From Alternaria dauci (Eukaryota; Ascomycota; Dothideomycetes; Pleosporales; Pleosporaceae): a DNA stretch of 64,000 bases. Made by a program: the position numbers and the translations under genes. Shown in pieces: positions 18,324 through 18,488 of the stretch (positions within the stretch are counted from its first letter, which is position 1; the number at the start of each line of letters is the position of its first letter). Where the stretch lies: positions 1,612,001-1,676,000 of the forward strand of contig NC_091276.1 of the NCBI RefSeq assembly GCF_042100115.1. The letters run 5' to 3'. The notes beneath the pieces were generated by a model that ran no database searches, was not told where the DNA came from, and saw nothing but the letters and a program-made list of their open reading frames with translations.

Positions 18324-18329
18324 AAAAAA
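18324..18329 (-). terminator. RNA polymerase III oligo(T) terminator
   Basis: Run of six T on the minus strand, starting 7 nt after the tRNA discriminator base, followed by a second T-run. This is the expected polymerase III terminator and supports a transcribed tRNA gene. Confidence 0.75.
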
Positions 18330-18335
18330 GAGAAA

Positions 18336-18488
18336 TTCCGACACCGGGAATCTGTTTAATTGTTAGAATGATGAATCGAACTCGAATTGAGTCAAGAAAA
18401 CTTACCGAACCCGGGCCTTGCCGGCACTATACAGTGAACTGACTCTGCGGATGAGAGCGGCAAATCCTAGCCACTAGACCATATCGGA
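18336..18488 (-). tRNA. tRNA-Glu(CUC) with anticodon-loop intron and T-loop insertion
   Basis: Read on the minus strand from 18488. The acceptor stem TCCGATA pairs with TGTCGGA (18343-18337) with one wobble; the discriminator is A at 18336. The A box is TGGTCTAGTGG. The anticodon stem TGCCG/CGGCA flanks loop CTCTCA..C with anticodon CTC (18455-18453). A 27-nt intron (18451-18425) follows position 37, the canonical eukaryotic site. The T stem CCGGG (18414-18410) pairs perfectly with CCCGG (18348-18344), but the T loop TTCG/ATT is split by 54 nt (18405-18352). That segment begins GTAAGT, has CTAAC 13 nt before its end, and ends AACAG. Removal of both segments gives a standard tRNA-Glu. An oligo(T) terminator follows. 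Whether the gene is functional cannot be read from sequence. Confidence 0.85.

Follow-up and report, generated by a model that had tools for sequence, protein, structure and literature searches.

Results

The tRNA-Glu(CUC) gene, its anticodon-loop intron and its T-loop insert

The window examined here is a stretch of 64,000 nucleotides (nt) from the fungus Alternaria dauci (assembly GCF_042100115.1, contig NC_091276.1, positions 1,612,001 to 1,676,000). On its reverse strand lies a tRNA-Glu(CUC) gene with an insert of 54 nt that splits the T loop (Table 1). The T stem halves CCGGG and CCCGG bracket a T loop that reads TTCG^ATT, with the break falling exactly at 18405-18352. A sequence-only reading had claimed this split, the GTAAGT start, CTAAC motif, ACAG end and length of the insert, a 27-nt intron in the anticodon loop and a terminator for RNA polymerase III (Pol III). 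The letters bear out these features, and sister genes lacking the insert as well as the tRNA caller ARAGORN confirm the split: ARAGORN found no tRNA in the unmodified window and called tRNA-Glu(ctc), with a 27-nt intron between tRNA positions 37 and 38 (37^38), once the 54 nt were deleted. The T6 run starts 8 nt past the final base of the acceptor stem. The claim that precisely 18405-18352 has to be removed stood only in part. This removal restores the tRNA, but a boundary shifted by 1 nt (GGTAAG...ACA) repairs it equally well by position alone, and we prefer the GT...AG boundaries because of the GT-AG rule. Rfam missed the gene, giving 0 matches at the gathering score and only a sub-threshold SNORD67 at the locus in a permissive search.

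Table 1. Features of the interrupted tRNA-Glu(CUC) gene (positions are those of the window)
Feature	Position	Strand	Basis or remark
tRNA-Glu(CUC) gene	18336..18488	-	5' end at 18488; letters, ARAGORN and sister genes
Exon block 1, tRNA positions 1-57 with anticodon-loop intron	18406..18488	-	100% identity over 83 nt to C8:627329-627411 (intron-free)
Anticodon CUC	18453..18455	-	letters and ARAGORN
Ordinary tRNA intron, 27 nt, at 37^38, tRNA splicing endonuclease type	18425..18451	-	ARAGORN, joined sequence
Predicted spliceosomal-type intron, 54 nt, T loop, at 57^58	18352..18405	-	sequence and sister genes
Predicted 5' splice site GTAAGT	18400..18405	-	letters
B-box-like AGTTCGATTCA within the 54-nt intron, replacing the split exonic B box	18372..18382	-	8 of 10 consensus positions
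Branch-site-like CTAAC	18362..18366	-	letters
Predicted 3' splice site ACAG	18352..18355	-	letters
Exon block 2, tRNA positions 58-73	18336..18351	-	letters and sister genes
T6 run, Pol III terminator	18324..18329	-	letters

In the 34.9-Mb assembly of 10 contigs that contains the window, we found five tRNA-Glu(CUC) genes. Two carry the insert (the window gene and C9:482265-482417), and the other three, one on C8 and two on C1, lack it precisely and have a contiguous TTCGATT. The C8 copy and the window gene agree at every position of the 83 nt preceding the insert, anticodon-loop intron included, and of the downstream exon; since the two are otherwise identical, the insert must have been gained or lost precisely. 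Close Alternaria relatives exist for two proteins encoded in the window: for ClpX in A. alternata (92%) and for a sugar transporter in Alternaria sp. RS040 (96% over 70% of the query).

The insert had also been said to match the introns of protein-coding genes in the window. Two of these could be placed by homology, one of 49 nt in the sugar transporter gene (GTGTGT..CTCAC..ACAG) and one of 62 nt in an armadillo-repeat gene (GTAAGT..CTGAT..ACAG), and two are too few for a genome consensus. Against this small yardstick the match holds for length and GT-AG ends but not for the branch sites, which are weaker in the protein introns (CTCAC, CTGAT) than in the inserts of tRNA genes.

Inserts in tRNA genes across the genome

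Where the sequence-only reading had expected a single odd gene, we found a genome-wide pattern. Pattern searches, BLAST and the reading of fetched loci yielded 32 inserts in 21 tRNA genes, the window gene included, and these figures are lower bounds (at least 32 introns, at least 21 genes). The interrupted genes are those for Glu-CUC (two), Gly-GCC, Gln-CUG (three), Gln-UUG (two), Lys-UUU, Arg-CCU, Arg-UCG (two), Ser-CGA, Ile-AAU, Thr-UGU, Pro-AGG (four), Pro-CGG and Pro-UGG. Their inserts occupy 10 distinct positions from 9^10 to 57^58, none of them 37^38. In the T arm they lie at 57^58 (nine), 53^54 (four), 52^53 (one) and 55^56 (one), and on the D-arm side at 11^12 (six), 21^22 (four), 9^10 (two), 10^11 (two) and 14^15 (one), while two at 34^35 fall within the anticodons of Pro-CGG and Pro-UGG. 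According to ARAGORN, 17 of the 21 genes also have an ordinary anticodon-loop intron; the exceptions are Lys-UUU, Arg-CCU, Ile-AAU and Thr-UGU. Before removal of the inserts ARAGORN called one of the 21 genes (Pro-CGG, wrongly as Thr with an 87-nt intron), after removal it called a tRNA in 21 of 21. The two Arg-UCG genes were named Leu(taa), with the anticodon intron placed differently, and the UCG assignment is our own reading. Intron-free copies account for five of six Gly-GCC and four of five Ile-AAU genes, and at least one exists for Arg-CCU (L096, by ARAGORN) and for Thr-UGU (L142, by our reading; ARAGORN called it Ser).

Five pattern searches contributed to the census. The first gave 33 matches against 34 in a backward control, seven of them tRNA genes; the second 10 against 7 (eight tRNA); the third 110 against 53, and among the matches listed 20 places were read, three with inserts. 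The fourth search gave 25 matches against 30 (five tRNA genes, three of them new) and the fifth 21 against 54, comprising five known genes, the new Pro-UGG gene and 15 others judged from the printed letters alone. Those not recognised as tRNA were assessed visually, and most were read no further. Nine further stretches that were read comprised three tRNA genes, five that are not tRNA and one 61-nt piece (L172). The Rfam tRNA family RF00005 gave 60 matches over the genome, with 63 of 931 candidates scored, which does not amount to a census.

The inserts are uniform in structure. All 32 have GT...AG ends, 30 of them YAG, and all measure 48-60 nt. In 31 of 32 there is a CTAAY motif whose second A precedes the end by 9-13 nt; among the first 30 inserts it occurred in 29, against a mean of 0.5 and a maximum of 4 in dinucleotide-shuffled interiors (2000 rounds). 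Terminal dinucleotides, branch-site distance, length range and the restoration of the tRNA upon removal thus agree with U2-type introns, and no insert has the location of canonical endonuclease introns.

B-box matches carried by the inserts

Ten inserts, at 57^58 and 55^56, cut the internal promoter element known as the B box (GGTTCRANYCC). A B-box match of at least 8 of 10 informative positions is present inside seven of them; shuffled inserts gave a mean of 0.46, and seven were reached in 0 of 2000 rounds. Counting one gene per isoacceptor, four of six B-box-splitting inserts carry such a substitute (0 of 2000 shuffle rounds). Among inserts located elsewhere, a match of at least 8 occurred in 1 of 22, a value reached in 1259 of 2000 rounds (shuffle mean 0.96). 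This single match belongs to Gln-UUG on C4, where the D-arm insert holds it and the T-loop insert is devoid of one; in the second Gln-UUG gene a match follows 15 nt downstream of the gene, ahead of its T run. The Gln-CUG gene on C8 has a match in its insert and a second one 60 nt downstream. At that distance from the interrupted gene we also noted a second tRNA-Gln 3' half with an intact B box (L078, C8:593254-593914). Where the insert lies at 52^53 or 53^54, as it does in five genes, its terminal AG supplies a G and the B box is re-formed across the border. A genome-wide pattern combining the 5' splice site, B box and CTAAC gave nine rows at eight places (backward control 15), seven of which are tRNA inserts.

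Measured from an A box presumed at position 8, the distance to the nearest B-box match of at least 8 was 33-181 nt in 19 of 20 genes measured, with none for Lys and with Pro-UGG outside the set. Excerpts of a study on yeast tRNA genes give a spacing of 31-93 nt between A and B boxes (PMC4937561); here the gap exceeds 93 nt in 12 of 19 genes. A downstream run of at least five T was present in the sequence at hand for 17 of 20 genes. Only T4 was seen for one Arg-UCG and one Pro-AGG gene, and the T run of the Ile gene was seen in a separate pattern match.

Isoacceptors found only as interrupted genes

Copies were sought in one BLAST of nine insert-bearing genes, containing 13 of the 32 inserts, against the genome (E 0.01); this search did not cover other copies of Pro-UGG, Arg-UCG and Ser-CGA. 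All Gln genes found, three CUG and two UUG, have both a D-arm and a T-loop insert according to BLAST and the reading of the loci, and BLAST at this threshold returned no other Gln gene. A search of the 34.9-Mb genome for the uninterrupted Gln D arm, GTGTAGYGGTTATCACTC, found nothing when at most one mismatch was allowed; two mismatches gave six places, four of which are interrupted Gln genes and two of which are not readable as tRNA. As all Gln genes found are interrupted, none of them could yield a cytosolic Gln tRNA without splicing. Two genes of the window use CAA 12 times and CAG 32 times in 869 codons. All four full-length Pro-AGG genes have two D-arm inserts each, Lys-UUU was found as a single gene with two inserts, and Pro-CGG was represented by one gene. 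A fifth Pro-AGG match, of 43 nt (C10:716434), is a degraded relic by our reading; the Pro tRNA relic (L159, C10:716220-716520) lies about 4.5 kb from an intact Pro gene.

Sequence comparison between paralogs suggests that the joined form is under selection. In nine pairs the identity is 85-100% for the joined exons together with their anticodon introns and 58-92% for the inserts, and the three joined Gln-CUG genes differ only within their anticodon introns. By eye, paired changes preserve stems that are split by inserts: C-G to U-A at 6:67 in Gln-UUG, and C-G to U-A at 5:68 and G-C to A-U at 7:66 in Pro-AGG. A further paired change in Gln-UUG (27:43, C-G to U-A, also by eye) concerns strands separated by the ordinary anticodon intron alone.

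Discussion

In textbooks, introns of nuclear tRNA genes adjoin the anticodon, and the tRNA endonuclease cuts them out. We propose that the 54-nt segment in the tRNA-Glu gene of Alternaria dauci is very probably of another kind, namely a spliceosomal (U2-type) intron and one of at least 32 in 21 tRNA genes, whose Pol III transcripts would use an intronic B box and would be freed of the intron by the spliceosome. The evidence in the sequence consists of the anatomy of the inserts, the precisely intron-free sister genes, the replacement of the B box, the need for Gln and Pro-AGG tRNAs, the paired changes and the upkeep of splice and promoter signals. From this we infer the spliceosome as the agent, transcription by Pol III, the order of the steps and the removal of the anticodon intron by the endonuclease. 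Pol III would transcribe the Glu gene from the A box and the B box borne by the intron, which carries its own because it splits the exonic one, and would stop at the T run. The spliceosome would then remove 54 nt at the GT-AG boundaries with CTAAC as the branch site, so that the T loop reads TTCGATT again; removal of the 27-nt anticodon-loop intron would be a separate task of the tRNA splicing endonuclease. In Pro-CGG and Pro-UGG the spliceosomal-type intron sits inside the anticodon, so its removal by the spliceosome should precede the action of the endonuclease or be independent of it.

Since every Gln gene and every full-length Pro-AGG gene found is interrupted, these inserts would have to be spliced out. 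It is likely, though less secure than the nature of the introns themselves, that the spliceosome serves as an obligate tRNA-processing machine in this fungus: cytosolic Gln, Pro and probably Lys-UUU tRNAs would depend for their existence on the splicing of Pol III transcripts by the spliceosome, and with part of the promoter, the B box, taken over by introns, intron and gene would have become mutually dependent. The sequence-only reading had left three options, that the spliceosome processes a tRNA precursor, that an intron-like element had landed in the gene, or that the gene is a dead copy. On the present sequence evidence the first is strongly favoured.

Several observations weigh against this interpretation. 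Substrates with a first exon of 9-14 nt, structured and lacking a cap, are unusual for a spliceosome. The D-arm inserts of 11 genes (Gln, Lys, Thr, Pro-AGG) fall within the A box or next to it. Both B-box matches of the Gln-UUG genes lie outside the T-loop insert, at sites without a shuffle control of their own, and the Lys-UUU match reaches just 7 of 10 positions. CTAAY is missing from one insert, in the D arm of Gln-UUG on C4, and Lys-UUU in its spliced form retains an A12-C23 mismatch. Some counts are inflated by paralogous genes, and search patterns were hardly enriched over their backward controls (33/34, 10/7, 25/30, 21/54 and, for the combined splice-site and B-box pattern, 9/15); the identification of the 21 genes stems from the tRNA context around the inserts and not from match counts. 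The window gene itself, with three intron-free sisters, could be a silent copy, though its exons are identical to those of an intron-free sister and a B box and a terminator are retained.

One rival explanation takes the inserts for ectopic introns that the tRNA splicing endonuclease cuts at a bulge-helix-bulge motif, their GT-AG appearance being incidental. Excerpts of two reports describe ectopic introns of this type in the tRNA genes of Cyanidioschyzon merolae, where homologues of TFC1 and TFC3 were not identified (PMC3978253; PMC9602550). In Alternaria dauci the central 4-bp helix between two 3-nt bulges is complete in only 1 of 30 inserts by a simple test with one registration and without a shuffle control, and we rejected an endonuclease-type intron. 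Bulge-helix-bulge processing would also leave the GT-AG ends, the CTAAY motif and the narrow length of 48-60 nt unexplained, which makes it very improbable. Unlike the ectopic introns of C. merolae and archaea, as far as the excerpts describe them, the B box here is mostly replaced inside the intron.

Slightly less probable still is a mobile introner-like element that spreads into tRNA genes, with splicing as a by-product. Introner-like elements of Dothideomycetes account for intron gain in related fungi. The T-loop inserts of Glu and Gly are alike (z 5.7 and 6.6) at identical flanks, which suggests that one tRNA gene may have passed its intron to an unlike one by gene conversion or reverse splicing; this likeness is a weak sign, as some other pairs across isoacceptors score as high (z 6.8 for Pro-AGG and Gln-UUG, z 5.1 for Arg-UCG and Glu; simple shuffles, 60 rounds). 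Kinship of the inserts is thus no more than suggested. On the other hand, the nine-gene BLAST returned tRNA genes and one tRNA relic only, and the Glu insert at E 10 found nothing outside tRNA genes, although BLAST on about 50 nt has limited reach. Introner-like elements differ in this respect: for the inserts searched, no copies outside tRNA genes and no near-identical copies in unrelated genes were seen, and we rejected a recent mobile element. The inserts also sit at 10 positions. An intron-like element that landed in the gene, as the second option had it, may nevertheless be the origin of the inserts, and such an origin would not exclude splicing.

The view that insertions inactivated tRNA genes, leaving dead or decaying copies, could draw on the intron-free sisters of Glu-CUC, Gly-GCC and Ile-AAU (3 of 5, 5 of 6 and 4 of 5), which may make the interrupted copies dispensable, but for the class it is contradicted by all five Gln and all four full-length Pro-AGG genes being interrupted with no uninterrupted gene found, by exons that are better conserved than inserts, by stems kept through paired changes and by the maintained splice signals and B boxes, so that we hold it, too, to be hardly credible.

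That a Pol III transcript can undergo splicing of the mRNA type is known from the U6 precursor of fission yeast, which is spliced at an mRNA-type intron according to an excerpt of the report (PMC10484740). The tRNA genes described here resemble this case, as far as the excerpt goes, in that a Pol III gene for a structured RNA would contain an mRNA-type intron, here with a B-box match inside it in seven of the ten cases where the B box is split. They differ from it in being tRNA genes, at least 21 in number, with introns at 10 positions. The U6 intron of Schizosaccharomyces pombe also contains a B box. Both full-length U6 copies of the Alternaria genome read as intron-free, and a 5'-truncated copy of the U6 small nuclear RNA (L091, C1:5437718-5437778) lies near a full U6 gene. 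Canonical eukaryotic tRNA introns at 37^38 occur in 17 of the 21 genes as well; the inserts differ from them in position and in their GT-AG ends and branch site, and would need other machinery. Among the open-licence articles of PubMed Central that were listed, titles and the first parts of abstracts did not report spliceosomal introns in nuclear tRNA genes. Patterns spanning the junctions were also run outside the genome. A 15-base pattern matched 19 viral contigs, none of which continues as tRNA by a simple text test, and a second pattern matched 0 viral contigs. Two more matched 6 and 27, and one matched 12 prokaryote loci; by the simple text test 0 of these 45 continue as tRNA, some of the loci ending soon after the match.

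If the proposed reading is correct, translation in this fungus is tied to the spliceosome through essential tRNA genes that are interrupted, some within the anticodon, and U6 is not the only Pol III transcript on which the spliceosome works. It would also be a natural case of introns bearing a promoter element. Tools built for introns at 37^38 would miss such genes, and genomes of this kind may seem to lack Gln or Pro tRNAs.

Other loci in the genome

Two tRNA-like loci, L138 (C1:347390-347617) and L144 (C2:1393095-1393317), combine good acceptor and T stems with 94-99 extra nt in the anticodon arm according to ARAGORN; no GT-AG intron is evident in them, and a normal anticodon loop is absent. 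A dense tRNA cluster with organelle-like anticodon sets at C3:3344209-3399162, within a contig the size of a chromosome, may represent either mitochondrial DNA joined to that contig or a large nuclear insertion. Finally, some ten or more copies of a sequence with a Pol III-like 3' end near GTTCGAATCGCGTTGTTACTTCATCTTTTTT and a conserved flank, perhaps a tRNA-derived short interspersed element, are scattered over the assembly (C1:1710303, C2:964267, C3:404204, C3:3098374, C6:2202949, C7:239941, C8:151863 and others); one copy was read (L140).
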